From: Bolinopsis microptera
Taxonomy: Eukaryota; Ctenophora; Tentaculata; Lobata; Bolinopsidae
Assembly (NCBI RefSeq): GCF_026151205.1
Contig: NC_087082.1
Span: 17,763,401-17,827,400, forward strand
Direction: 5' to 3'
Length of the DNA: 64,000 nucleotides
A program made the position numbers and the translations under genes. Shown here one piece after another: positions 7,201-61,828 of the stretch (position 1 is its first letter; every line of letters begins with the position of its first letter). A model generated the notes under the pieces. The model was given only the letters and a program-made list of their open reading frames with translations. It ran no database searches and was not told the origin of the DNA.

Positions 7201-10200
7201 TGTTAGCATGGCTCTACACAGCAGGCCACATCCCATCAAGTTAAAACCACCCCATTAAGTTTATCACATTTCATGAGATTATCACGGGAAGATGTTTACC
7301 AGTGCACACTGCACAGTCATCTTGAGAACTGGACTAACTTGTCATTTCAGGTAGGTTGTGGCCGTATTAACGAGTACACAACCAGTTCTGGGATGGATAT
7401 CGACAAGATCCTCCCCTTAGTCTACAGCAACACCACAGGTTACACATTAACCCGTTACTATGATGCTAAGAGTCGTGTTATTTGTTGACAGGACTGAAGA
7501 GATCGTGTTATTCATACAATTTATAAATTCTTACACGAAAAAAAAATCGTGGTCTAACTTTTAACTGTCCAACCTTTGCAGTCGATCCTGCCAAAGTTCA
7601 ACTCCTACTTTTCAACAACAAGAAATCAGCCAGCAACTTCCTCAACCTAACAGTGAATCAATTGCAGTGGAATAACACCATTTTCATGTTCGGGTACAGC
7701 AATGGTCGGGACTCTTACATGGACTATTATCTGAGTGCCATTGATTGGAACTCAACTGTGACTAACACGTTAATCTTCCTTGGATCGGACTTCTTAAATG
7801 TGCAACTTGAGAACTTCTGGGGAAAGATAAGCGACCCAAAACTACTTCGTGACGTTCCGGAGAATTTAGCACTTCTTGACCCGTGAGTTCCTTAGATCAG
7901 TACGTTATCAAACTGCTAAAGTTCTCTAAATTCTCTAAATATTGGGATTATCAGGAGACAGGAGTTACATGCACAGTGATTTACTGATACTGTTCTTTAC
8001 TGATATCTGTTTCAACCTCCTGATTTAGATGCATTCCAATGAATTGCAGGTACGAGGTGATACGAGAGAGACCCATAATTCCAATGCATTGCAGGTACGA
8101 GGTGATACGAGAGAGACCCATAATTCCAATGGATTACAGGTACGAGGTGATACGAGAGAGACCCATAATTCCAATGCATTGCAGGTACGAGGTGATACGA
8201 GAGAGACCCATAGTTCCAATGCATTGCAGGTACGAGGTGATACGAGGGACCAATAATTCCAATGTAATGCAGGTACGAGGTGGTACGAGGTGACACTAAT
8301 TCCAATGTATTGCAGGTACGAGGTGATACTAATTCCAATGCATTGCAGGTACGAGGTGATACGAGAGAGACCCATAGTTCCAATGCATTGCAGGTACGAG
8401 GTGATACGAGGGACCAATAATTCCAATGTAATGCAGGTACGAGGTGGTACGAGGTGACACTAATTCCAATGTAATGCAGGTACGAGGTGGTACGAGGTGA
8501 CACTAATTCCAATGTATTGCAGGTACGAGGTGATACTAATTCCAAGTTGATACGAGGTGATACTAATTCCAATGTATTGCAGGTACGAGGTGATACGAGA
8601 GAGACGACAGTACACCACACAAAAGACAAGTTGGCTAGGATTCTCTATGAGTGGGACATCTCTCCTAGCCCAGTCCCTTGATACTGTCCTTCAGCAGAAT
8701 ACCAAACATTCCTGTGCTTCTGAACTGAGGAAACGCGTCTTTGAAACACTCTCCACAGGCAACTACACTGTTTCTCTGGAGAGCACTGATTTGGGGATTA
8801 ACTTTGTGAACAGGTCCTACTCTAAGGGGTACGCAGTTAAAGCGGTCACCGCTACAGGGAATAACTCTATATCCACTCTGCTGGGTTACTCTTCCCATCT
8901 TGGTATCGAACTACTGAACGAGAGGATACCGCAGAATCTCAGCTCGACACCAGAACAACAGTCCTGCTCGGTAACCTGTCCCCCAGGTCAGCATCGTGAC
9001 TTTATGGACGTGGTAAACTTGCCCTGTTGCTGGAAGTGCGTGAAGTGCCCAATCCACTACTACAACAACAGGTCCGATCAGAACAAGTGTCTGGAATGCG
9101 GCCCAAACGAGACGAATTCCGATGATTACATAGGTTGTGTTCCTACTCATAGAGAGTTCCTAAAGATATCATCTAGATACGTGATCCTTGGGATAACCTG
9201 CAGTGGTCTCAATCTCGTTGTCATCACCTTTGTCATGATCCTGTGCATAAGACTGGCATCTCGACCAGTCATCAAGGCTGCTGATCCTGCATTTTTGGTA
9301 ACATTCCTCTTAGGGCTAGCTTTTGGGAACTTTGGTGTGATACTCACTCTGATGAAGCCCTCACCGAGGGTTTGCACAGCGGAATTTATCCTCAACACCG
9401 TGTTTTTCACTTTGGTGACATCAAGTTTAGAGCTGAGATCAATGAAGATCTACACAATATTCTCAGCAGCAAACAACTTCAGAAAACCAAGATTCCGGGG
9501 TCTTTGTACACGGAGAGGACAGATGGTGATGAACACAGTTATCTTGATAGTAAACCTTACAATAACAGTATTTGTGGTGGAGATGGGTAACGGTTGGAAG
9601 TTTGAGCTAGTCCAGGAGCAGATCCACAGGGAACTATACGTCATGTGTAAATCAGGCAGTTGGTTAACATTCCTGCCCTTCATCATCCCCGGATTCCTCT
9701 TCCTACAAACACTTTACTTTGCTGTTATAATGAGGAACTTCCCCCACAACTTCAGAGAAACTACCAGTATCTTTGCAGCGACCCTCATCGCCATCTTCTC
9801 TTCCGCCATGTTCCTGACCGGGTATGAGCTGTCCCCACCCAAGAACAAATCAGTCCTGAGGGCCATCATGATCTACATATCAGTGCTGGCATTCCTAGGT
9901 TCCATCCTGGGCCCCAAGTTTGTGGTGCTGATCAGGTTCAGGAGCAGTGCTTCAGAAGAGAAGGAGGAAATCAGTGCAACTTTACACAATTATTGCAACA
10001 CCGTCAGCACTAAATCAATTAGACATACTGGTAAGACCATGACTAAGGTTAATGGGGTGAAGGGAGCTACTAAAACTAACAATGTTGTCACCAGAGAAGC
10101 TTCCCTGACAATATCCAGTGATTCTGAATTACAAGTTAGGAATGCAAGTGTACAAGAACCTGATGTTCTCAACATTGATTGTTATAATAAATCTGCAATC

Positions 10201-10206
10201 ATTTAA
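4242..10206 (+). CDS. Class C GPCR, metabotropic-glutamate-receptor-like
   Basis: Seven exons fit together: 4242-4366, 4613-4759, 6471-6648, 6939-7100, 7351-7438, 7582-7882 and 8604-10206. Junction phases are 2, 2, 0, 0, 1 and 2, and the sum is 867 codons plus stop. The predicted order is a Venus-flytrap ligand-binding domain (residues about 10-440, with GDFVIAGIFNIGE near its start and a VSYIYADDALMDQ lobe-1 segment), a cysteine-rich NCD3G linker (about 455-512, including CCWKCVKC), and seven membrane helices from about 524. Class C landmarks are RPVIKAADPAF, the PSPRVC helix-3 cysteine and LGPKFVVLIRF at the end of helix 7. The tail is Ser/Thr-rich. The N-terminal signal-peptide exon was not found. 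Exon 5 begins GTAGGT directly after its acceptor. A mariner-like element sits in intron 2 and a minisatellite in intron 6. The ligand cannot be assigned from sequence alone. Confidence 0.85.
4862..6335. mobile_element. Mariner-like transposon with long inverted repeats
   Basis: The outer roughly 360 bases at each end are inverted copies starting CAGGGTGGCCCAAAAGTGAC. TA dinucleotides flank both ends (4860-4861 and 6336-6337). The inside encodes only the N-terminal part of a transposase (5348-5746), so this copy has probably lost its catalytic region. It lies within intron 2 of the class C receptor and should be removed by splicing. Confidence 0.85.
5348..5746 (+). pseudogene. Truncated transposase, helix-turn-helix N-terminus
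   Basis: 132 residues begin with a YTAEQRLFVYLKK-type helix. Later come RRRTARTEENI and LSRTSLKRILKRDL, the pattern of a paired-type DNA-binding domain in mariner-like transposases (the DUF4817-like group). After residue 132 the frame closes and I see no catalytic DDE/D segment before the right inverted repeat. It lies centrally within the 4862-6335 element. The assignment rests on motif resemblance. Confidence 0.65.
8025..8603 (+). repeat. 45-bp minisatellite abutting the last receptor exon
   Basis: Tandem units of about 45 bp, with shorter variants, contain ttgcaggtacgaggtgatac. The array fills the 3' part of the last receptor intron, and its final unit supplies the sequence up to the inferred acceptor at 8602-8603. 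Every unit contains an AG-GT pair in ttgcag-gtacgag, which looks like an acceptor joined directly to a donor. Long open frames on both strands here come from the repeat and are not proteins. Confidence 0.8.
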
Positions 10207-14132: not shown

Positions 14133-14972
14133 TTAAATTTCTAAAAGTACGAAATTTGAGTTGTCCCAGTCCTTGTCATCCGGTTTATGTGCTTGTGCAG
14201 TAAGCACATGCTTGTTGACTGTAGACTTGAATGAATTTAGGAATTTGTCTTGTAGGCAAGTGGTGACATATTTTATGTCCTTGTTAATAATGTTGACTGT
14301 TTGGTTATATAACTTAGGCCCAATGTAAGAAATGCTCTTGTCTGAATTACATAAACGGTTAAATGGTACTGCAAAGAACTCAGGTTCTCTTCTAGGTGCG
14401 TTTAAGTTTGAAACAGTGAACATTCTTATAATATTTGGTGGTGCAGTGTTAGAATAAACTTTGTGCATTAAGCATAATATACATTTAGCTATTATTAGGT
14501 TTGCGTCGTCAGCGAAATAAATATGTTTAGCTAAATTACTAATCTGAGGAAGGTCGTTGATGTAGATTATGAACAGAATTGGTCCGAGAATGGAGCCCTG
14601 TGGTACTCCGTAGTTAAGTTTGAGGTGAGAGGACTTGCAGTTGTTGACGCTCACGTATTGCTCTCTATCGGTTAGATATGAGTGAAACCAAGATAAAGCC
14701 AACCCCCGAACTCCATAGTGCTCAAGTTTTCTCAGAAGAATACTGCTGTCAACCATGTCAAAGGCCTTGCTGTAGTCCAATAAACATGATACATAAACGA
14801 TCATGAAACAAGGATAATATCCTGACTGACTGATTTCTGGCACTGACCGTGTAATTACTGAGCACTTTTGTAAGAAGAAAAACAGGAGGAATTTGAAATG
14901 GTATGAAATATGACACCTCATAATCGTACGACTATTCTTCTCAAAGTTAGATTTGAGGACACATTTTTTCAT
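14133..14972 (-). pseudogene. Internally deleted LINE reverse transcriptase
   Basis: A 279-codon open frame contains LLDYSKAFDMVDSSIL (RT motif A), YGVPQGSILGPILFIIYIND (motif B) and YFADDANLII (motif C). After motif C the protein jumps to a LINE C-terminus-like segment (NRLCNSDKSISYIGPKLYN). The thumb region is therefore missing, yet the frame stays open. The N-terminal finger region is also absent, replaced by an unrelated start. It resembles CR1/Jockey-group LINEs. A related scrap occurs near 38.37-38.43 kb. Confidence 0.75.
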
Positions 14973-15219: not shown

Positions 15220-15247
15220 GGGGGGGGGGGGGGGGGGGGGGGGGGGG
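15220..15247 (+). repeat. Poly-G tract, 28 bases
   Basis: An uninterrupted run of 28 G about 100 bases upstream of a GPCR start codon. Its true length is uncertain because such runs are error-prone in sequencing. Confidence 0.8.
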
Positions 15248-15354
15248 TATAGCTCGAGTTTAGCTGGAATTGTTTCGCTGTAGCTTAAACTGGCACGTAA
15301 TAACCCGCCTATATTCTCGTTGAAATATCTATCAATTAATCGCATTTTAGGATA

Positions 15355-16545
15355 ATGATGACCCAAATTCTCGACAACCCGAAGAACGGTTCAAACCTGG
15401 TCGAAATGAACGATCACGAAGTACACCTGATTCTAAAAGGCGCCTGCTATGAACTAGCCCCACTCACCATTCCACTGTGCTCCATGGTATTTGCTCAAAA
15501 CATTGTTATATTCACGGACTTCTACAGAGAGAGGGCTAAGTTTGTACCGAGCTTGTTCATGGGGATCGCAATGACGGACATCCTAAAAGCACAAGGAGAG
15601 CTGGTTGTCTCGCTGGTCAGCATCTTCGTTTTCACAGGCTATCTTGAGATTTCGGCCCTTTACTACACCATGTTTTACTACATACTAACAGCTACACCAG
15701 GCATCAACTGCTCTAAGCTCATCAACTTAGTGCTGACCATCACGTTTACCTTAAATGTGACAAACCCTTTCCGTAGGCTGAACACAGCACGCATACGAAA
15801 GATAACCGCTTATCTCTGCTTGCTGATAACGGTCCTCCATATGTTGGACACTGCTGCAGCTATTGTGATCCACTTGAAGTACCTCAACTCCCACCCTGAT
15901 GTATCCTCTGTATCTTATCTGTGGATGGCGGTTATGGCCATGATGCCTGGTGTTATTACAGCCTCAGGACTTTTTTGTATCCCAGACCACACAGGATCTT
16001 CAAGATGTGCTGAGATTGGGCATAAACACCATCTGAGCCATGAACAGGTCCACATTTTGGCATGCCTGACTGGCTCCTTCTACTTTCTACTGCCATCTGT
16101 CATTACATTGGTCTGTATGGTGATTCAGATAATATATTTCCGAAGATCTTTTCAGGATGACGACCAAGCTAACTCATCTACACTCAATCCCACTCGTCAT
16201 ATTTCAATCACCGTTTTGCTAGTGTCAGTTCTCTCCTTTACTTGTCATACCAGTTTCTTTATGATAGGGGCCATTTTCTTCTCCATTCACTCAAACGTCT
16301 CAGCAGAGCACCATGACGACCAATTCTTTGTCAGAATGGGCGTGTTGCTGGGGTTTGCCGAGTACCAACTTCCCCTGATCTACGCGTTTATCTACCCCAT
16401 CATCATCATCAGCCGGAAGCAGGAGCTGAGGGAAAGGTATACTGGGTTCATCAGACGAGTCACTGCCTGCTGCGGAAGAAGAGGGGACACAGACAGAGGA
16501 GACGTGGACACAGACAGAGGAGAAGGGGACACAGACAGAGGATAA
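15355..16545 (+). CDS. Divergent rhodopsin-type seven-transmembrane receptor
   Basis: A single 396-codon frame. About seven hydrophobic helices can be picked out: LAPLTIPLCSMVFAQNIVIF, a second starting FVPSLFMGIAMTD, a third ending LNVTNPFRRLN (a stand-in for the DRY region), LCLLITVLHMLD, LLPSVITLVCMVIQIIYF, VLLVSVLSFTCHTSFFMIG, and a last one ending YAFIYPIIII, comparable to NPxxY. A basic stretch (SRKQELRERYTGFIRR) and a double Cys follow, suiting a juxtamembrane helix 8 with palmitoylation. From about residue 376 the tail is made of the 21-bp minisatellite (GDTDRG units) and stops at a TAA inside a repeat unit. No typical DRY or CWxP motif is present, so this belongs to a lineage-specific receptor group; the ligand is unknown. 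I saw no intron. Confidence 0.75.
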   Translation: MMTQILDNPKNGSNLVEMNDHEVHLILKGACYELAPLTIPLCSMVFAQNIVIFTDFYRERAKFVPSLFMGIAMTDILKAQGELVVSLVSIFVFTGYLEISALYYTMFYYILTATPGINCSKLINLVLTITFTLNVTNPFRRLNTARIRKITAYLCLLITVLHMLDTAAAIVIHLKYLNSHPDVSSVSYLWMAVMAMMPGVITASGLFCIPDHTGSSRCAEIGHKHHLSHEQVHILACLTGSFYFLLPSVITLVCMVIQIIYFRRSFQDDDQANSSTLNPTRHISITVLLVSVLSFTCHTSFFMIGAIFFSIHSNVSAEHHDDQFFVRMGVLLGFAEYQLPLIYAFIYPIIIISRKQELRERYTGFIRRVTACCGRRGDTDRGDVDTDRGEGDTDRG

Positions 16546-19180
16546 GGGGACACAGACAGAGGAGACGTGGACACAGACAGAGGAGAAGGGGACACAGACA
16601 GAGGATAAGGGGACACAGACAGAGGAGAAGGGGACACAGACCGAGGAGAAGTGGACACAGACAGAGGAGAAGGGGACACAGACAGAGGAGACGTGGACAC
16701 AGACCGAGGAGACGTGGACACAGACAGAGGAGAAGGGGACACAGACAGAGGAGAAGGGGACACAGACAGAGGAGAAGGGGACACAGACCGAGGAGAAGGG
16801 GACACAGACAGAGGAGAAGGGGACACAGACAGAGGAGAAGGGGACACAGACAGAGGAGAAGGGGACACAGACAGAGGAGAAGGGGACACAGACAGAGAAG
16901 AGGGGACACAGACAGAGGAGAAGTGGACACAGACAGAGGAGAAGTGGACACAGACAGAGGAGAAGTGGACACAGACAGAGGAGACGTGGACACAGACAGA
17001 GAAGAGGGGACACAGACAGAGGAGAAGTGGACACAGACAGAGGAGACGTGGACACAGACAGAGAAGAGGGGACACAGACAGAGGAGACGTGGACACAGAC
17101 AGAGAAGAGGGGACACAGACAGAGGAGAAGTGGACACAGACCGAGGAGACGTGGACACAGACCGAGGAGAAGTGGACACAGACAGAGGAGAAGGGGACAC
17201 AGACAGAGGAGACGTGGACACAGACCGAGGAGACGTGGACACAGACCGAGGAGAAGGGGACACAGACAGAGGAGAAGGGGACACAGACAGAGGAGAAGGG
17301 GACACAGACCGAGGAGAAGGGGACACAGACAGAGGAGAAGGGGACACAGACAGAGGAGAAGGGGACACAGACAGAGGAGAAGGGGACACAGACAGAGGAG
17401 AAGGGGACACAGACAGAGAAGAGGGGACACAGACAGAGGAGACGTGGACACAGACAGAGGAGACGTGGACACAGACCGAGGAGAAGGGGACACAGACAGA
17501 GGATAAGGGGACACAGACCGAGGAGACGTGGACACAGACAGAGGAGACGTGGACACAGACCGAGGAGAAGGGGACACAGACAGAGGATAAGGGGACACAG
17601 ACCGAGAAGAAAGGGACACAGACCGAGGAGAAGGGGACACCGACCGAGGAGAAGGGGACACAGACAGAGGAGACGTGGACAGACAGAGGAGACGTGGACA
17701 CAGACAGAGGAGAAGGGGACACAGACAGAGGAGACGTGGACACAGACAGAGGAGACGTGGACACAGACAGAGGAGAAGTGGACATAGACCGAGGAGAAAG
17801 GGACACAGACAGAGGAGAAGTGGACACAGACCGAGGAGAAGGGGACACAGACAGAAGAGAAGTGGACACAGACCGAGGAGAAGGGGACACAGACAGAGGA
17901 GAAGTGGACACAGACAGAGGAGACGTGGACACAGACCGAGGAGAAGGGGACACAGACAGAGGAGAAGTGGACACAGACAGAGGAGACGTGGACACAGACC
18001 GAGGAGAAGGGGACACAGACAGAAGAGAAGTGGACACAGACCGAGGAGAAGGGGACACAGACAGAGGAGAAGGGGACACAGACAGAAGAGAAGTGGACAT
18101 AGACCGAGGAGAAGGGGACACAGACCGAGGAGAAGGGGACACAGACAGAGGAGACGTGGACACAGACCGAGGAGAAGGGGACACAGACAGAGGAGAAGGG
18201 GACACAGACAGAGAAGAAGGGGACACAGACAGAGAAGAAGGGGACACAGACAGAGAAGAAGGGGACACAGACAGAGGAGAAGGGGACACAGACAGAGGAG
18301 AAGGGGACACAGACAGAGGAGACGTGGACACAGACCGAGGAGAAGGGGACACAGACAAAGGAGAAGGGGACACAGACAGAGGAGAAGGGGACACAGACAG
18401 AGGAGAAGGGGACACAGACAGAGGAGAAGTGGACACAGACCGAGGAGAAGGGGACACAGACAGAGAAGAAGGGGACACAGACAGAGAAGAAGGGGACACA
18501 GACAGAGGAGAAGTGGACACAGACAGAGGAGAAGGGGACACAGACCGAGGAGAAGGGGACCCAGACAGAGGAGAAGGGGACACAGACAGAGGAGAAGGGG
18601 ACACAGACAGAGAAGAAGGGGACACAGACAGAGAAGAAGGGGACACAGACAGAGAAGAAGGGGACACAGACAGAGGAGAAGGGGACACAGACAGAGAAGA
18701 AGGGGACACAGACAGAGGAGACGTGGACACAGACCGAGGAGAAGGGGACACAGACAAAGGAGAAGGGGACACAGACAGAGGAGAAGGGGACACAGACAGA
18801 GGAGAAGGGGACACAGACAGAGGAGAAGTGGACACAGACCGAGGAGAAGGGGACACAGACAGAGAAGAAGGGGACACAGACAGAGAAGAAGGGGACACAG
18901 ACAGAGGAGAAGTGGACACAGACAGAGGAGAAGGGGACACAGACCGAGGAGAAGGGGACCCAGACAGAGGAGAAGGGGACACAGACAGAGGAGAAGGGGA
19001 CACAGACAGAGAAGAAGGGGACACAGACAGAGAAGAAGGGGACACAGACAGAGGAGAAGGGGACACAGACAGAGGAGAAGTGGACACAGACAGAGGAGAA
19101 GTGGACACAGACAGAGGAGAAGGGGACACATACAGAGGAGAAGGGGACACAGACCGAGGAGAAGTGGACACAGACCAAGA
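16481..19180 (+). repeat. Large 21-bp minisatellite in a receptor tail
   Basis: Roughly 128 tandem copies of a 21-bp unit, consensus ggagaaggggacacagacag plus a. Variants include aag to acg, cagaca to cagacc, and gga to gaa. Because 21 is divisible by three and the unit lacks stops in most frames, all forward and reverse frames stay open for hundreds of codons. Those frames (for example 16923-19184 and 16300-19131) should not be read as proteins. A second-order duplication is visible: the blocks near 18300-18560 and 18720-18960 are nearly identical. The first 65 bases lie in the receptor coding sequence. Confidence 0.95.
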
Positions 19181-19184
19181 GTGA

Positions 19185-20533
19185 GACTTTGTTACTTTGT
19201 GATTAACTCGAACTTGCTACAGGAGCATGATATTATGTTAAACTTTAACTGCCAGTTTTACTGTTTTGAAATTTCTTTTGTCTGTTCTTGATTGAGAATA
19301 TTTGTAATTCACAATTCGTAAAATTGATTAATATCATAAAAAATAAATTGTGTTAGTATGTATGGTAAACGTTTTTGCACTTTTTTTACATGTGATTTTT
19401 TAATAATTCTGATAGATTCTTTTTTGATATCTAAACATTTTAAATATTGAATTTTGTATTTTAATATTATCTTTTACGTGCCTATCAGCATCAACTTCAA
19501 TTTATTATTAATACCTTTATTTACAATATACATTGAAAGGTGATTAATAATCAACTTATTGAGATGAGTATGTCAACTAGTTGAATTGACTTTTATATTT
19601 CTGTTTCACTTCTGGACAAGTTGTTTTCCTTTTCTCATTTCCTATGCTCGAATTACTCATATACAGTTTAAAAAAGGAAATTTCTTTCTCAGTAAATCTT
19701 GTAGGTTCCACCCAGCACCCTAACCCGGCCAGGCCCGCCAGGGCCCGACATGGTACAACATGATACAATCACTAGTACAACCTATATATTCTGGTGTATT
19801 AAAGGCTGGATTCTACCCTACAAGCACACAGCTGACGTTGCAGAACACAGCTATAATTACAGGGCTCAATCATTAAAACTCATAAGTATACTGTAAACTA
19901 ATTTCAGTATTAAGATCTGCAGAGCCGAGCTCCTTACCCGGCACGTGTGCCTCCACCTGAATCACAGTAATTCACCTGTATAACTGAGAGAGAGAGAGCT
20001 GCTGATCCAAGAACCCAACTCCCACAGTACTAGCTGACCGATCATTCTCTTCACCGCAACCTCACCACTCCAGGTGCTCTTTAGACCGATTAGCTGCCAG
20101 TTTGAATCCTGCTATTGGCCGTGCTTCCCGGAGAGTTACGCAACCCCCCTCCGCTTCCGGGAGATGAGTTAAGTGAGTTTTAGTAGCCCTGGCTTGGTTG
20201 TCTTGGAGATTAATGGGTTGTCATGGGTACTAATTCTCGGAATTAGACACCACGTGACCACCACAAAACAATTGCGTGCTAGCCGCCAACCAGAACAGGT
20301 TGAAAAGTTTACAGCGTATGAGAAAGCCGCTGCTCAGCCAGGCAGAGGGCCGTGCAATTGCAGTTTGGGATTGTATTTTTCTACATTCTTGTGTAAAGTA
20401 GGTCGTTCATTTGTTGTCATATACCATCAGTTTTACATTGTAGGGATTGTAGTTGTATCATTTATATGAACGGAGTTAGTTGGACGAATTATCCGCAGCA
20501 AATACCCAGTAACCAAGCCAGCCTACCCGAACA
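19185..20533. other. Spacer after the receptor minisatellite
   Basis: AT-rich to about 19.7 kb, probably including the receptor 3' UTR, then more GC-rich to 20.5 kb. A 98-codon frame at 20173-20469 resembles no family I know. I see no exon structure. Confidence 0.35.
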
Positions 20534-21897
20534 GGTTGCAGGTTACAGTCCTGTTAGTTTCAGGTTGCAGGTTACAGTCCTGCTAGTTTCAGGTTGCAGG
20601 TTACAGTCCTGTTAGTTTTAGGTTGCAGGTTACAGTCCTGTTAGTTTTAGGTTGCAGGTTACAGTCCTGTTAGTTTTAGGTTGCAGGTTACAGTCCTGTC
20701 AGTTTCAGGTTGCAGGTTACAGTCCTGTTAGTTTCAGGTTGTAGGTTACAGTCCTGTTAGTTTCAGGTTGCAGGTTACAGTCCTGTTAGTTTCAGGTTGC
20801 AGGATACAGTCCTGTTAGTTTCAGGTTGCAGGTTACAGTCCTGTTAGTTTCAGGTTGCAGGTTACAGTCCTGTTAGTTTCAGGTTGCAGGTTACAGTCCT
20901 GTTAGTTTCAGGTTGCAGGTTACAGTCCTGTTAGTTTCAGGTTGCAGGTTACAGTCCTGTTAGTTTCAGGTTGCAGGTTACAGTCCTGTTAGTTTCAGGT
21001 TGCAGGTTACAGTCCTGTTAGTTTCAGGTTGCAGGTTACAGTCCTGTCAGTTTCAGGTTGCAGGTTACAGTCCTGTCAGTTTCAGGTTGCAGGTTACAGT
21101 CCTGTTAGTTTCAGGTTGCAGGTTACAGTCCTGTCAGTTTCAGGTTGCAGGTTACAGTCCTGTCAGTTTCAGGTTTCAGGTTACAGTCCTGTCAGTTTCA
21201 GGTTGCAGGTTACAGTCCTGTCAGTTTCAGGTTACAGGTTACAGTCCTGTTAGTTTCAGGTTGCAGGTTACAGTCCTGTTAGTTTCAGGTTGCAGGTTAC
21301 AGTCCTGTTAGTTTCAGGTTGCAGGTTACAGTCCTGTTAGTTTCAGGTTGCAGGTTACAGTCCTGTTAGTTTCAGGTTGCAGGTTACAGTCCTGTTAGTT
21401 TCAGGTTGCAGGTTACAGTCCTGTTAGTTTCAGGTTGCAGGTTACAGTCCTGTTAGTTTCAGGTTGCAGGTTACAGTCCTGTTAGTTTCAGGTTGCAGGT
21501 TACAGTCCTGTCAGTTTCAGGTTGCAGGTTACAGTCCTGTTAGTTTCAGGTTGCAGGTTACAGTCCTGTTAGTTTCAGGTTGCAGGTTACAGTCCTGTCA
21601 GTTTCAGGTTGCAGGTTACAGTCCTGTTAGTTTCAGGTTGCAGGTTACAGTCCTGTTAGTTTTAGGTTGCAGGTTACAGTCCTGTTAGTTTCAGGTTGCA
21701 GGTTACAGTCCTGTTAGTTTCAGGTTGCAGGTTACAGTCCTGTCAGTTTCAGGTTGCAGGTTACAGTCCTTTTAGTTTCAGGTTGCAGGTAACAGTCCTT
21801 TTAGTTTCAGGTTGCAGGTTACAGTCCTGTTAGTTTCAGGTTGCAGGTTACAGTCCTGTCAGTTTCAGGTTGCAGGTTACAGTCCTGTTAGTTTCAG
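20534..21897 (+). repeat. 29-bp minisatellite
   Basis: About 47 head-to-tail copies of a 29-bp unit containing gttgcaggttacagtcctgt and then tagtttcag. Copies differ mainly at tta/tca before gtttcag. There are no intervening unique spacers, so this is not a CRISPR array. Each unit contains two CAG-GTT junctions. Open frames are by-products. Confidence 0.95.
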
Positions 21898-24050: not shown

Positions 24051-25292
24051 ATGTCTGGCGGACTAGGAGGGTGCGTTATAAACGAGTACGATGTCACGGC
24101 ACTGGGGGAGCTGTGTGGGGAGTTGCTCCTCATAGCGGGGGCGCTCATATTCTTCCAGTACGCTGACAAGGGTTAGTAGGGGTAGAGGTGCAGTTAGAGG
24201 TGCAGTTAGAGGTGCAGTTAGAGGTGCAGTTAGAGGTGCAGTTAGAGGTGCAGTTAGAGGTGCAGTTAGAGGTGCAGTTAGAGGTGCAGTTAGAGGTGCA
24301 GTTAGAGGTGCAGTTAGAGGTGCAGCTAGAGGTGCAGCTAGAGGTGCAGTTAGAGGTGCAGTTAGAGGTGCAGTTAGAGGTGCAGTTAGAGGTGCAGTTA
24401 GAGGTGCAGTTAGAGGTGCAGCTAGAGGTGCAGCTAGAGGTGCAGTTAGAGGTGCAGCTAGAGGTGCAGTTAGAGGTGCAGTTAGAGGTGCAGTTAGAGG
24501 TGCAGTTAGAGGTGCAGTTAGAGGTGCAGTTAGAGGTGCAGTTAGAGGTGCAGTTAGAGGTGCAGTTAGAGGTGCAGTTAGAGGTGCAGTTAGAGGTGCA
24601 GCTAGAGGTGCAGCTAGAGGTGCAGTTAGAGGTGCAGTTAGAGGTGCAGTTAGAGGTGCAGTTAGAGGTGCAGTTAGAGGTGCAGTTAGAGGTGCAGTTA
24701 GAGGTGCAGTTAGAGGTGCAGTTAGAGGTGCAGTTAGAGGTGCAGTTAGAGGTGCAGTTAGAGGTGCAGTTAGAGGTGCAGTTAGAGGTGCAGTTAGAGG
24801 TGCAGTTAGAGGTGCAGTTAGAGGTGCAGTTAGAGGTGCAGTTAGAGGTGCAGTTAGAGGTGCAGCTAGAGGTGCAGTTAGAGGTGCAGTTAGAGGTGCA
24901 GTTAGAGGTGCAGTTAGAGGTGCAGTTAGAGGTGCAGTTAGAGGTTAGAGGTGCAGTCGTGAGTCGGGGGACTGTGTTGTCATTTAGTTCACGTCCTAAA
25001 ATGTGTTTAAAGTTGCAGAAATAAGGCATTTACAAAGTATTATTGCTGAATTTTAAAGAAGTATTTATACTATTGTTTACAATTTAATGGCATTGTATTT
25101 CTATAGAAAATACAATACCATACAACATCTCACGAATTTGTTTCAGATGACTACAAGCCACACGTTAACGCCATGATGGGCGTGTACGAGAGTTTCAAAG
25201 GTTTGTTACCTGAGCGGGCAAGTAGAGTCCTCAACAACGAGGATGCCCCAATAGAAGCGGAGGCCATCGAAGATGAAGAACTGTTAAATTAG
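24051..25292 (+). CDS. Unrecognised 88-residue two-exon protein
   Basis: Exon 1 is 24051-24171 (ATG after tagcaat) and exon 2 is 25147-25292 (ending TAG). The phase-1 donor gttagt pairs with the tttcag acceptor, and the total is 89 codons with stop. The protein begins MSGGLGGCVINEYD, has a short hydrophobic segment (LLLIAGALIFFQYA, about residues 25-38) and then an acidic, soluble tail ending in EDEELLN. This could be a small single-pass membrane or mitochondrial protein, but I do not recognise the family and infer no function. The intron holds a 12-bp array starting about ten bases after the donor. One MITE copy lies just upstream and another about 180 bases downstream. Confidence 0.6.
24184..24957 (+). 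repeat. 12-bp minisatellite in an intron
   Basis: About 64 copies of gtgcagttagag, some with gctagag. It starts immediately after the donor of the small gene's intron. Because 12 is divisible by three, it is open on both strands (Gln-Leu-Glu-Val on plus, Thr-Ser-Asn-Cys on minus); neither is likely to be translated. Each unit contains an AG-GT junction. Confidence 0.95.
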
Positions 25293-34654: not shown

Positions 34655-35437
34655 TTAGGTAAAAGTAATCTTATTAATAGGCATGTGTCCCTTGTCACCA
34701 ATTCCTGATATGGAAACTTTTCCATTTGGCTCAAGAACAACTTCAGTTATACTTCCATTGGCTAAACTCATCCTTAGCCAGCCCTCAGGAGGGTTCTGTG
34801 ATGCCCGGCAAACCAAGTATCTGATCACATTTGCATGGCACACCACTATTTCATATGAATCTTCTTTCTGTGAATAATGTGCTCTGTGGAAATATTTCCG
34901 AAAAGCAGCTTCAATACGTGCTCCATCTGTAAACTCCCATGAATCTGGTTTGAATCTACTACTGGAGGGCACAGAATCAATTGGATGCCCCTCACGTAGC
35001 AGGTCTGTTTTTTCAATTTCAAAGTTTTCATTTAGAACCTCCATACCAGTTTCATTGAGCTGTTTCAGAATGATTTCACCAGTTTCATTTGCTCTGGTCA
35101 TAGTGCTGATAACTAAATCAGAATATTTTACACCCAACTTAGCAAGATGCTTACCAGTGCACTCAGCTTGTTGACGACCCAGATCAGTGAGAATTTTCTC
35201 TTTATCATGCTGTTTATCTAGTTCATACTGACCATGTCTAATGAGATATAGGGTCCGTCTGGTGGCTGATTTTCTTTTCTCAAGATCCTCATCTGGTGAG
35301 TTAGGTTTAACAAGAGATGATGGCTGGCGGAAGTCCCAATTGTAATCCCATGCTTTTGATTTGCACTTTGCATGAACGCTAAGAGCAGACACTGTTCCAG
35401 CTACTGAAGCAAGACAAACTATTGCTGCTTTCTTCAT
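34655..35437 (-). CDS. PGAM5: PGAM5 mitochondrial Ser/Thr protein phosphatase
   Basis: One uninterrupted frame of 260 residues; human PGAM5 is 289. An N-terminal hydrophobic anchor (residues about 4-20) is followed by the WDYNWD multimerisation motif at 30-35. The histidine-phosphatase signature LIRHGQY has its catalytic His at about 68. The LREGHPID and DGARIEAAFRKYFHRA segments are followed by the second catalytic His in VVCHANVIRYLVCRA (about 201) and by PPEGWLRMSLANGSIT. The family acts on phospho-Ser/Thr/His, not on phosphoglycerate, in the mitochondrial membrane in mitophagy and cell-death control. All expected catalytic residues are present. Unlike the neighbouring SRRT and ERH it has no introns, which could mean an ancestral retrocopy or simple intron loss. 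Confidence 0.95.
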   Translation of the reverse strand: MKKAAIVCLASVAGTVSALSVHAKCKSKAWDYNWDFRQPSSLVKPNSPDEDLEKRKSATRRTLYLIRHGQYELDKQHDKEKILTDLGRQQAECTGKHLAKLGVKYSDLVISTMTRANETGEIILKQLNETGMEVLNENFEIEKTDLLREGHPIDSVPSSSRFKPDSWEFTDGARIEAAFRKYFHRAHYSQKEDSYEIVVCHANVIRYLVCRASQNPPEGWLRMSLANGSITEVVLEPNGKVSISGIGDKGHMPINKITFT

Positions 35438-42768: not shown

Positions 42769-43134
42769 TCCTATTTAATTGGCAGGTTTTAATTGTTTAA
42801 CATTGACTTGCTCAACAAACAAGCTTACGTTTCTTACTTCATTCGTAAAAATGTGAATAAACTGGCTATAGAGACGGAAATCAAAAGCAAAAGCTTTCCT
42901 TTCCCAGGTAAGAATGTTATTATTTGTATTACATAAACATAAATTATATTACATTATAGAATATTATTTTAAACTATTTACACTAAATAAAGGGTGGCTT
43001 AACAAAGTTAAACTTAACTCTAGATTAGATCATCGCATCATGAGACTGGGACACCTAAATAGTATCTAGTGCTCACAACGTATTATCTTTCTTTAATCAT
43101 AACTTATTCGACTCTTACTGCACTATATAGACCG
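42769..43134. other. AT-rich spacer
   Basis: No feature recognised between the inverted-repeat element and the following minisatellite. Confidence 0.4.
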
Positions 43135-45712
43135 GAGAGTACTGGTGCTCTACTGTTCATAGGATAATACTGGTGCTCTACTGTTCATAGCAGTGTACTG
43201 GTACACTACTGTTCATAGGAAAGTACTGGTGCTCTACAGTTCATAGCAGTGTACTAATGCTCTGCTGTTCATAAGAGAGTACTGGTGCTCTACTGCTCAT
43301 AGGCGAGTATTGGTGCTCTATTGTTCATAGCAGTGTACTGTTCATAAGATAGTACTGGTGCTCTACTGTTCATAGGAGAGTATTGGTGATATACTGTTCA
43401 TAGAATTGTATTGTTCATAGGATAGTACTAAGGCTCTACTGTTCATGGGAGTGTACCGATGCTCTGCTGTTTATAGGAGAGTACTGGTGATAAACTGTTC
43501 ATAGGAGAGTACAGGTGCTCTAGTGTTCATAGCAGTGTACTGGTGCTCTGCTGTTCATAGGAGAGTACTGGTGCTCTACTGTTCGTGGGAGTGTACCAAT
43601 GCTCTGCTGTTCATAGGAGAGTACTGGTGATAAACTGTTCATAGGAGAGTACAGGTGCTCTAGTGTTCATAGCAGTGTACCGTTCATAGGATAGTACTAA
43701 TGCTCTACTGTTTATAGGAGTGTACCGATGCTCTGCTGTTTATAGGAGAGTACTGGTGCTCTACTGTTCATAGGAGAGTACAGGTGCTCTACTGTTCATA
43801 GCAGTGTACCGTTCATAGGATAGTACTAATACTCTACTGTTTATAGGAGTGTACCGATGCTCTGCTGTTTATAGGAGAGTACTGGTGCTCTACTGTTCAT
43901 AGGAGAGTACAGGTGCTCTAGTGTTCATAGCAGTGTACCGTTCATAGGATAGTACTAATGCTCTACTGTTTATAGGAGTGTACCGATGCTCTGCTGTTTA
44001 TAGGAGAGTACTGGTGCTCTACTGTTCATAGGAGAGTACAGGTGCTCTACCGTTCATAGCAGTGTACCGTTCATAGGATAGTACTAATGCTCTACTGTTT
44101 ATAGGAGTGTACCGATGCTCTGCTGTTTATAGGAGAGTACTGGTGCTATACTGTTCATAGGAGAGTACAGGTGCTCTACTGTTCATAGCAGTGTACCGTT
44201 CATAGGATAGTACTAATGCTCTACTGTTTATAGGAGTGTACCGATGCTCTGCTGTTTATAGGAGAGTACTGGTGCTCTACTGTTCATAGGAGAGTACAGG
44301 TGCTCTAGTGTTCATAGCAGTGTACCGTTCATAGGATAGTACTAATGCTCTACTGTTCATAGGAGTGTACCGATGCTCTGCTGTTCATAGGAGAGTAATG
44401 GTGATAAACTGTTCATAGGAGAGTACTGGTGCTCTGCTGTTCATAGGAGAGTACTGGTGCTCTACTGTTCATAGGAGAGTAATGGTGCTCTACTGTTCAT
44501 GGGAGTGTACCGATGCTCTGCTGTTCATAGGAGAGTACTGGTGATAAACTGTTCATAGGAGAGTACAGGTGCTCTAGTGTTCATGGGAGTGTACCGATGC
44601 TCTGCTGTTCATAGGAGAGTACTGGTGCTCTACTGTTCATGGGAGTGTACCGATGCTCTGCTGTTCATAGGAGAGTACTGGTGATAAACTGTTCATAGGA
44701 GAGTACAGGTGCTCTAGTGTTCATAGCAGTGTACCGTTCATAGGATAGTACTAATGCTCTACTGTTTATAGGAGTGTACCGATGCTCTGCTGTTTATAGG
44801 AGAGTACTGGTGCTCTACTGTTCATAGGAGGGTACAGGTGCTCTACTGTTCATAGCAGTGTACCGTTCATAGGATAGTACTAATGCTCTACTGTTCATAG
44901 GAGTGTACCGATGCTCTGCTGTTTATAGGAGAGTACTGGTGCTCTACTGTTCATAGAAGAGTACTGGTGCTCTACCGTTTATAGTAGTATTCTGTTCATA
45001 GGATAGTACTAATGCTCTACTGTTTATAGGAGTGTACCGATGCTCTGCTGTTTATAGGAGAGTACTGGTGCTCTACTGTTCATAGGAGGGTACAGGTGCT
45101 CTACTGTTCATAGCAGTGTACCGTTCATAGGATAGTACTAATGCTCTACTGTTCATAGGAGTGTACCGATGCTCTGCTGTTCATAAGAGAGTACTGGTGC
45201 TCTACTGTTCATAGAAGTGTACTGCTCATAAGCACCAGTACTCTCCTATGAACAGCAGAGCAGCGGTACACTCCTATGAACAGTAGAGCACCAGTACTCT
45301 CCTATGAACAGTAAATTACCAGTAATCTTCTATGAACAGCAGAGCACCAGTACTCTCCTATCAACAGTTTATCACCATTAATCTCTTATGAACAGCAGAG
45401 CATTGGTACACTGCTATTCATAGCAGTGTTCATAGGATAGTACTGGTGCTCTACTTTTTTATAGGAGAGTACTGGTGCTCTACTGTTCATAGCTGTGTAC
45501 TGTTCATAAGAGATCACTGGTGCTCTACTGTTCATAGCAGTGTACTGGTGCTTTACTGTTCATAGCAGTGTACTGGTACTCTACTGTTCATAGGAGTGTA
45601 CTGGTGCTTTACTGTTCATAGGAGAGTACTAGTGCTTTACTGTTCAACTATATACGAGAGTACGGTGAATATTAGAGCACCAGTACACTCATATGAACAG
45701 TAGAGCACCACG
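43135..45712. repeat. 2.6-kb minisatellite with 129-bp higher-order units
   Basis: The basic unit is about 28 bp (ggtgctctactgttcatagg plus agagtact), with many variants. Between about 43672 and 44317 a marker variant (gcagtgtaccgttcatag) recurs exactly every 129 bases (43672, 43801, 43930, 44059, 44188, 44317), showing a higher-order unit. Near 45220-45415 the units run in the opposite orientation, after which the original orientation returns; another reversed piece is at about 45670-45712. No gene lies inside. Confidence 0.9.
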
Positions 45713-58981: not shown

Positions 58982-59695
58982 CGGCGGATCTGGATACGCA
59001 GACTGATGATCCTCGCCTACATTCCTACAGCGGACGTCCCGGACGTATCCTGGACCAGATGCCACCGACCTTGGACATCGACGACCTCCTCGCCTACTTC
59101 CAGACGACATGGATCCAGGGACTCACCACCTCCTCTGGTACTGGACGAGCTAAGTTCCCTCCACTCTCCTGGAACGCTTACGATCGGACCCACTTTCACA
59201 TGAACAGAACGAACAACTTTGTGGAGTCCTGGAACAAGAAGTTCTCCGCTATCCTTGGACACTCCAACCCCACCATCTACAACTTCATCACATCACTTGG
59301 GATTTAGATATTATTGCTATTGAGTGTGTCAAGTTATATTCACTTTTTGATTTTCAACAACTCAATATTCTCGATTTACATTGTCTGCAAAGCCCTGAAT
59401 AAAAAAAGTAACAACTAAACTAACAAGAATTATACAAAATGATAAAGAGAAAAGAAAAAATAAAACTTATAATGCGAATATAGAACAAAACTTAGAAACA
59501 AGTTGAATGTGTAAGTTCTGTCTTAGGTACAGTTTCTAGTAGTAGTACCGCCGTACTGTCCAAAGTAAAGTGGGTGTCATGTGATCCGCCGTACCGTCCA
59601 ACCTTTTTGGAAACTACCGCCGTACCGTCCTCCGCTGTACCGTCCTCCGCTGTACCGTCCACCGCCGCAGTGACTTCCGCCGCAGTGACCGGTTC

Positions 59696-59705
59696 CCAAG
59701 GAAAC
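59696..59705 (+). repeat. MULE target-site duplication, right
   Basis: ccaaggaaac, identical to 56451-56460; LINE ORF2 resumes here. Confidence 0.9.
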
Positions 59706-61828
59706 TTTGACTGGTCACTAGACGAGGCCGTTACACAGTACAATGAAGTTCTTTCGAGTCTTATGGACACCCATTGCCCAGAAGTGGACAGGAAAGTGAA
59801 AGCTAATGAAACGCCCTGGATTGATGAAGAGCTGAGAGAAGTGAGAAGAATGAGAAGAAGAGCAGAGAGAGCTTGGAGGTCTGGAAAAGGACTTAAATCA
59901 GCGTACGTAGGACTTCGGGATAAATTTCAGGGTATGGAGTTTGAAAAAAGAAAGGGATACTATAGAAATTCTATCACAGCTTCATCAGGTGATATTAAAT
60001 CCCTTTACAAGAAAGTCAATCGCTTGTTGGGTAATTCTCAGACAAGTATGCCATCTGGAAATCCTAAGGAAGTTGCAGATGATCTAAAAGCTTTCTTTTC
60101 TGGAAAAGTGGAAAACATCCGGTCCTCTATTGAAAACCTTCGTGATTTACCGGCCGAACCCCAGGAAAACCCAAGAGGTGATAAAAGGGAGTCAAAGTTA
60201 GAGACTTTTAAAGCAGTAGAAGTGTCCGAGATGGAAACCCTGGTGAAAAGCATGTCAAATAAGTTCTGTGACTTAGATCCAATACCCATGTTTCTCCTGA
60301 AACACTGCATTAAAGAACTAGCACCATTTCTCTGCTACATCGTCAACCTTTCCATTGAAACTGCTAAGTTTCCATCGGATCTTAAGAGAGCAGTGGTCAG
60401 ACCCACCCTCAAAAAGGATGGAGCAGAATCTGACTGTCTAAAAAACTATAGACCAGTTTCAAATCTCCCGGTTATGTCCAAGATCCTTGAAAAGTACATA
60501 CTCAGTCAACTCAATGAATACTTGGATGCAGAAGATCTTCATTGTCCAGTTCAGTCTGGTTATAGACCAAAACATAGCTGTGAGACTTTATTAGTGAAAA
60601 TGACTGATGACATTCTTGGGAAAATCGAGCAGGGTAGAATTGTGACACTGGTCCTGCTAGACCTTTCAGCAGCTTTCGACACAATAGATCATAATATACT
60701 TATCAGAAAACTGAGTATCAGAATCACAGGTAAAGCTAACAGCTGGTTTGAGGATTATCTTCATGCAAGATCTTTCAATGTCAAAGTTGGTCAGGAGCTA
60801 TCTGATGTAATGTGTCTTCTTTTTGGAGTGCCTCAGGGATCTTTGCTTGGACCGATTTTGTTCATCCTGTACATTAAACAACTTCAGAAGATAGCTGCTA
60901 AATATGGGATTCGTATTCAGCTATATGCAGATGACTCGCAGCTCTACATTTCTTTTGAACCCCTAATACCTGGAGAACTAAGTGAAATGAAAATTAAGAT
61001 CAATGCCTGCCTTGACGAAATAAGGGCCTGGATGCTTGAAAATTATATGAAACTTAATGAGTCAAAAACAGAGCTACTAGTCATTGGGAAGCCTTTGGTT
61101 CTTAGAGAATTTGGACAGAATCAAATTTCTGTTAATTTTGGGAGTACGGAAGTGATCCCAACAGAATGTGTCGGTGACAATTGGAAGAGTTTAGGAGTCA
61201 AACTAGACCCAGCTCTTACCATGGAAAGACAGCTAAACAGTGTTAAACAGAAGTCAATGTGGGCATTAACTAATCTGAAGAGAATACGATGTTATCTTGA
61301 TGAAAGTTTAAAAGTTATGCTAGTGAAGCAACTGGTTATATCAAAACTTGACTACTAGTACTGTAATGCACTGTATGTTTGCCTACCGATGAAGTCACTG
61401 AAAAAGCTCAAATCTGTACTGAATGCTGGAATACGATTCATCTATAACATCGATGACCGTGATGTAGATCTTCTTGAATACTACAAAAAAGCACACATTC
61501 TCCCCATTGAAGAACGAATAAGTTTCAAGATTTGTCTTCTGGCGTATAAGGTTATGTACAGCCAAGCACCACCATATCTGTCTGATCTTCTTCAGATTGA
61601 CTCCCAGGCAGCATATTCTAAAACACGGCAACTGTCTGGTGATGACTTAAGGTTTAAGGTTAGTAGACTCAGTAAAATCAGGCTAGGTGATAGGAGGTTT
61701 AGCAACGCAGCCCCAAAACTCTGGAACTTGCTACCGTATACGGTAAGACGGTAAGAAAAGCTAACAACATTGATACTTTTAAACGGGCTTTAAAAACCCA
61801 TTTTTTCAATCATTTAGAACATACCTAG
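59696..61828 (+). pseudogene. LINE ORF2, reverse-transcriptase part
   Basis: Resumes at QGNFDWSLDEAVTQYNEV. RT motifs in order: NYRPVSNLPVMSKILEKYI, QSGYRPKHSCETLLVKM, LLDLSAAFDTIDH (motif A), GVPQGSLLGPILFILYI (motif B), QLYADDSQLYIS (motif C, YADD) and the thumb region. An in-frame TAG at 61356-61358 interrupts VISKLDY. The frame continues to ERISFKICLLAYK and RFSNAAPKLWNLLP. A tandem 8-bp duplication (acggtaag twice, near 61738-61753) then shifts the frame; beyond it DTFKRALKTHFFNH and a stop at 61826-61828 complete the normal CR1/L2-type end. Confidence 0.9.

Follow-up and report, generated by a model that had tools for sequence, protein, structure and literature searches.

A 21-bp minisatellite runs across the 3' end of an open reading frame (ORF) that probably encodes a divergent seven-transmembrane (7TM) receptor, and the receptor frame closes at a TAA codon in the third repeat unit. 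Probably, the array overlaps the last ~20 codons of the receptor, the rest of it being 3'UTR or downstream DNA and its effects on the receptor tail accidental. The features on which this conclusion is based are collected in Table 1, where positions are those of the window, i.e., the whole stretch of 64,000 bases that was analysed. The sequence-only reading of this DNA had described a 2.7-kb minisatellite with a 21-bp unit, and the array proved to be real: Tandem Repeats Finder reports 2,694 bp with 128.6 copies and 92% matches. Unit starts were set by cutting the array at each GGACA or GGACC, which gave 129 intervals. Of these, 122 measure 21 bp, five measure 20 bp and one measures 19 bp, and a single interval of 5 bp corresponds to the place where the end of the array was cut. 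Minisatellites consist of head-to-tail units of ~10-60 bp in many copies, and this is the structure found here, in one sequence representing a single allele. A search for ungapped matches to the consensus unit with up to four mismatches found none elsewhere in the 64-kb window. The two-unit consensus had no exact match in viral contigs, and Rfam (gathering thresholds) and ARAGORN likewise returned no match.

Table 1 Features of the receptor candidate and the 21-bp array (positions in the window)
Feature	Position	Strand	Remarks
Divergent seven-transmembrane (rhodopsin-like) receptor candidate, ORF	15355-16545	+	396 codons and TAA
21-bp minisatellite	16482-19175	+	consensus GGACACAGACAGAGGAGAAGG; Tandem Repeats Finder
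Array part read as the last 20 residues of the receptor, then TAA	16482-16545	+	
Two identical 63-bp (three-unit) blocks	16485-16610	+	one TAA unit in each
Frame-shifting region	16884-17695	+	five 20-bp units, one 19-bp unit, two further TAA units
20-bp units	16884, 16988, 17050, 17091, 17405	+	
TAA units off the receptor frame	17488, 17572	+	
19-bp unit	17677	+	
Indel-free stretch, GDTDRGE phase open for 495 codons	17697-19184	+	off the receptor frame
Higher-order repeat	18305-19039	+	a run of 16 unit types is repeated exactly after 19 units (399 bp); end coordinate hand-computed from start, lag and run
AATAAA, candidate polyadenylation signal	19342-19347	+	~170 bp past the array

A first question is what kind of protein the ORF upstream of the array may encode. 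Its unique part extends over 15355-16476, while the remainder enters the array. The part before the array comprises 374 codons, for which the chance of staying open is ~2e-11 at the base composition of the window, and an in-frame stop precedes the ORF at 15337. Comparison with Pfam revealed a weak match to PF00001 7tm_1 (E 2.2e-4, 21.3 bits, under the cut-off of 30.5 bits). Eight hydrophobic segments were recognized at a lenient threshold of 1.2 and six at a strict threshold of 1.6, and the control of 500 shuffles, which applies to the threshold of 1.6 only, gave a mean of 3.3 and a maximum of 8 segments. The array starts close behind the last hydrophobic segment. DRY and NPxxY are motifs of rhodopsin-like (class A) GPCRs; the motif scan of the ORF found no NPxxY, and the sole DRY-like motif was an ERY at residue 360, within the tail. 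Searches against PDB sequences gave no match up to E 1, and the single-sequence AlphaFold model of the ORF was poor (mean pLDDT 44). Judged by its sequence, the ORF is a probable divergent 7TM receptor. Candidate relatives were also sought in bacterial and archaeal contigs, and the 22 pattern matches obtained there were rejected, none of them being confirmed by tblastn. With regard to the immediate surroundings of the ORF, a run of 28 G lies ~110 bp upstream of it, at 15220-15247, and an ORF or fragment with a reverse-transcriptase domain (RVT_1; 14133-14972, minus strand) is situated 0.4 kb upstream.

The final 20 residues of the receptor ORF, GDTDRGDVDTDRGEGDTDRG, are derived from the array. 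The sequence-only reading had placed in-frame TAA codons at 16543-16545 and 16606-16608 and had stated that without them the frame would remain open to 17787; both codons are present, and the next stops in the receptor frame are TAG at 17785-17787 and a fourth, also TAG, at 18100. Its further statement that the unit keeps the frame has to be abandoned, since the five 20-bp units and the 19-bp unit shift the frame, with seven bases lost in all. Nor does the present sequence encode several hundred acidic residues, as had been proposed: read-through beyond the second TAA would yield 392 residues, 98 acidic (D/E) and 92 basic (K/R), in a peptide that alternates among GDTDRGE, TQTEEKG and HRQRRRG phases and that, from 17420 to 17680, contains 47 basic and no acidic residues among 86. 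That part of the proposal is borne out only after large deletions made in silico (see below). In coding VNTRs of the CEL/DRD4 type, translation proceeds in frame over most of the array; the sequence studied here departs from this pattern because of the TAA in the third unit and the six frame-shifting units.

Another important question is whether the long open frames of the array indicate coding or are a by-product of its base composition. Only 51 of the 2,694 bases are T, and the reverse frames lack stops throughout. Because stop codons, as well as their reverse-strand equivalents (TTA, CTA and TCA), contain T, a T-free unit has no stops in any of the six frames, and when the T-free consensus was shuffled, all six frames were open in 20,000 of 20,000 trials. 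Tandem arrays of random 21-mers with the composition of the window left a given frame open in 64% of 20,000 trials; the forward frames were all open in 20% of them and the six frames together in 5%. When all bases of the array were shuffled, ~8.6-8.8 stops per forward frame were expected, compared with the 4, 2 and 0 observed, a deficit that arises because repetition holds the few T to few contexts. Thus, the array has long open frames on either strand because T is nearly absent, and these frames are weak evidence of coding. The ORFs that pass through the array on the reverse strand (943, 928 and 903 codons) were discarded as composition artefacts. As things stand, the main value of this locus is one of caution: T-poor arrays resemble coding DNA for long stretches in every frame of both strands.

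The substitutions that distinguish the 21-bp units were assessed as well. Among 12 distinct substitution types, two are silent in the GDTDRGE phase, which is that of the receptor, against 2.78 expected (P(>=) 0.88), and five and four are silent in the other two phases (P 0.29 and 0.48, respectively). The expectation was computed with the same base changes, and with 12 events the test is weak and has little power. Within this low power, the encoded residues show no sign of selection.

The order of the units provides direct evidence of how the array has been rearranged. The segments 16485-16547 and 16548-16610 are exactly identical, and the two early TAA codons are therefore most simply regarded as copies of one mutation. 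The longest exactly repeated run of unit types consists of 16 units, compared with a maximum of 7 across 300 shuffles of unit order; the repetition in the array is far beyond chance. The 63-bp block duplication and the 19-unit higher-order repeat thus reflect ordinary minisatellite turnover.

Can such turnover convert a short receptor tail into a long one? According to the sequence-only reading, the array would provide an intracellular domain of variable length, in which deletion of the TAA units toggles the tail between a short form and one of several hundred residues. In silico, every run of whole units was deleted or tandemly duplicated (8,256 events of each kind, weighted equally). Deletions left the tail unchanged in 7,887 cases and shortened it in 15, while 30 gave tails of 23-60 residues and 324 gave tails of more than 60 residues. 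The smallest deletion with the latter effect removes four units, the block duplications show that the array does rearrange, and in 252 of these 324 tails acidic residues are at least twice as numerous as basic ones, 150 of the 252 being at least 300 residues long. The proposed switch by copy number therefore stands insofar as the tail can become longer when a whole-unit deletion takes out the two early TAA units. It fails for tandem duplications, of which 8,253 had no effect on the tail and none produced more than 60 residues. Few small deletions have this effect: among the 1,235 that remove 10 units or fewer, 18 gave tails of more than 60 residues, and these tails (366-408 residues) are near-neutral, with net charges from -8 to +4. 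Tails of at least 300 residues in which acidic residues are at least twice the basic ones require the loss of at least 18 units; one 18-unit deletion yields the longest tail reached by any unit-aligned deletion, with 776 residues, 323 acidic and 117 basic. The frame-shifting indels in units past the stop and the absence of a selection signal in the encoded peptide also argue against a length-variable domain, and we consider this explanation very unlikely.

The 3' half of the array raises the question of whether the whole array was once coding. The 495-codon stretch in the GDTDRGE phase contains 225 acidic and 74 basic residues and ends at a TGA (19182-19184) that is the third codon past the array. 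All ten interruptions of this phase (four TAA, five 20-bp units and one 19-bp unit) lie within the first 58 of 128 units; the last 70 units contain none, and two of them carry a TAG in the present frame of the receptor. The clustering of the interruptions and the open 3' phase could be a relic of a once-coding tail, i.e., a GDTDRGE tail of ~900 residues ending in VDTDQE and a stop, which the TAA codons and 1-2 bp deletions of the 5' part would have truncated, either recently or in the present allele only. With the interruptions counted as three mutation types, the chance of such clustering is ~0.09 (hand arithmetic, post hoc). Against this history, a given frame would meet a stop within three codons in ~18% of cases (hand arithmetic, noticed post hoc), the clustering may reflect local copying, and all five substitution types confined to the last 70 units alter the residue in the GDTDRGE phase. 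We therefore regard a once wholly coding array as unlikely. The same phase would, in alleles or relatives that have neither the TAA codons nor the short units, encode an acidic GDTDRGE tail of up to ~900 residues with its end at the same TGA, so that the locus would have short-tailed and giant-tailed receptor forms. Such a locus seems to us quite unlikely; if it did exist, the length of the intracellular domain of the receptor would be set by an unstable array, and the effect on signalling or trafficking would be directly testable.

It is also necessary to ask whether the array could be intronic, with the true 3' exon of the receptor located elsewhere. This would involve a donor such as AAG/GTATAC, and the 9-mer concerned, AAGGTATAC at 16434, scores 6 in a donor scan that is a crude count of matches to a simple consensus (maximum 9). 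However, rival 9-mers within the ORF score equally or higher, including ATGGTGATT at 16117 with a score of 7, whereas 9-mers that start in the array score no more than 4, though AGAGTGAGA at 19178, just past its end, scores 6. Moreover, the lenient threshold already places eight hydrophobic segments in the ORF, and an AATAAA is present downstream of the array; it is the sole AATAAA/ATTAAA between 15355 and 19797, the next ones being at 19798 and 19872. An intronic array is thus highly improbable.

The 21-bp array is not the only one in the window. From 83 rows of Tandem Repeats Finder output, seven large arrays, the 21-bp one and six others, were selected, and together they occupy 9,461 of 64,000 bases; arrays are therefore common in this DNA. 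A tandem array at 8033-8596 (units of 33-45 bp) adjoins the mechanical 5' end of an ORF at 8557-10206 and overlaps it slightly; this ORF carries a domain of class C receptors (7tm_3, E 6.3e-30), so that a second receptor gene in the window is bordered by an array. A 29-bp array at 20532-21897 (47 copies, 97% matches) follows the 21-bp array at a distance of 1.4 kb. The 12-bp array at 24183-24945 (63.6 copies, 98% matches) is fully open in two frames per strand because of the composition of its unit. The 28-bp array at 43134-45646 has a higher-order period of 129 bp, and at 45231-45402 its unit, as judged by eye from the consensus, occurs on the opposite strand. The neighbouring ORFs of the window carry 7tm_3, FLYWCH and reverse-transcriptase domains, a combination that points to animal DNA, a second ORF or fragment with RVT_1 being located at 59574-61358 (plus strand). 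Finally, an ORF at 34655-35437 (minus strand) contains a histidine phosphatase domain (His_Phos_1, E 4.4e-20) and presumably resembles PGAM5.

The array, its stops, the reading frames and the block duplications are observed directly, and the following course of events would explain them. A dynamic minisatellite may have expanded where a gene for a divergent 7TM receptor ends, in its only or its last exon. If the ORF is expressed as a receptor, translation would terminate at the first TAA unit (16543-16545) and leave a short tail with ~20 repeat-derived residues, while the other ~2.6 kb of repeats would be 3'UTR, in a transcript ending near the AATAAA at 19342, or simply downstream DNA. Like other minisatellites, the array would gain and lose copies as blocks are duplicated or deleted, which we infer to occur within populations as well; the effects on the tail would be accidental, and the array itself would presumably have no function. 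This explanation is favoured because a TAA occurs early in the frame, 20- and 19-bp units follow downstream and silent changes are not in excess; it also agrees with the T-poor nature of the open frames, the turnover of blocks, the frequency of arrays in the window and the AATAAA past the array. It is weakened by the clustering of the interruptions, by the 495-codon open phase and by the acidic tails that result from large deletions.

A search of one open-access collection of literature found no report of a minisatellite array in the C-terminal tail of a GPCR, and several known systems can be compared with the locus in part. Cephalopod rhodopsin has C-terminal pentapeptide repeats that are translated throughout. 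Like the receptor candidate described here, it is a 7TM protein with a repeat-derived C-terminal tail, although its repeats differ in composition and are fully translated. The array of carboxyl ester lipase (CEL) is also normally translated. CEL resembles the 16482-19175 array in having a tandem repeat in the last exon (a putative last exon in our case), and single-base deletions in its VNTR shift the frame, so that the proteins are truncated and their C termini are aberrant (PMC8692231, PMC12185230). CEL, however, is an enzyme, whereas the receptor frame studied here is closed as early as the third unit, with the bulk of the array downstream of the stop. The 48-bp VNTR in exon 3 of DRD4 is a tandem repeat that encodes intracellular sequence of a GPCR (PMC3164202), as the receptor-tail repeat may do in our candidate. 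The DRD4 repeat belongs to the third intracellular loop, has documented alleles and preserves the frame with its 48 bp, while the array described here is located at the C-terminus, is shifted in frame and is represented by one allele. Tandem-repeat segments are abundant in the Nematostella proteome, and 80% of them can be read in two or more open frames (PMC2805694). They share this property with the array, but they are predicted repeat proteins (PMC2805694). The 40-bp VNTR of SLC6A3/DAT1 is a minisatellite in the 3'UTR of a gene for a membrane protein (PMC4472402); the array described here would likewise be largely 3'UTR, and it differs in also overlapping the last ~20 codons of the receptor.
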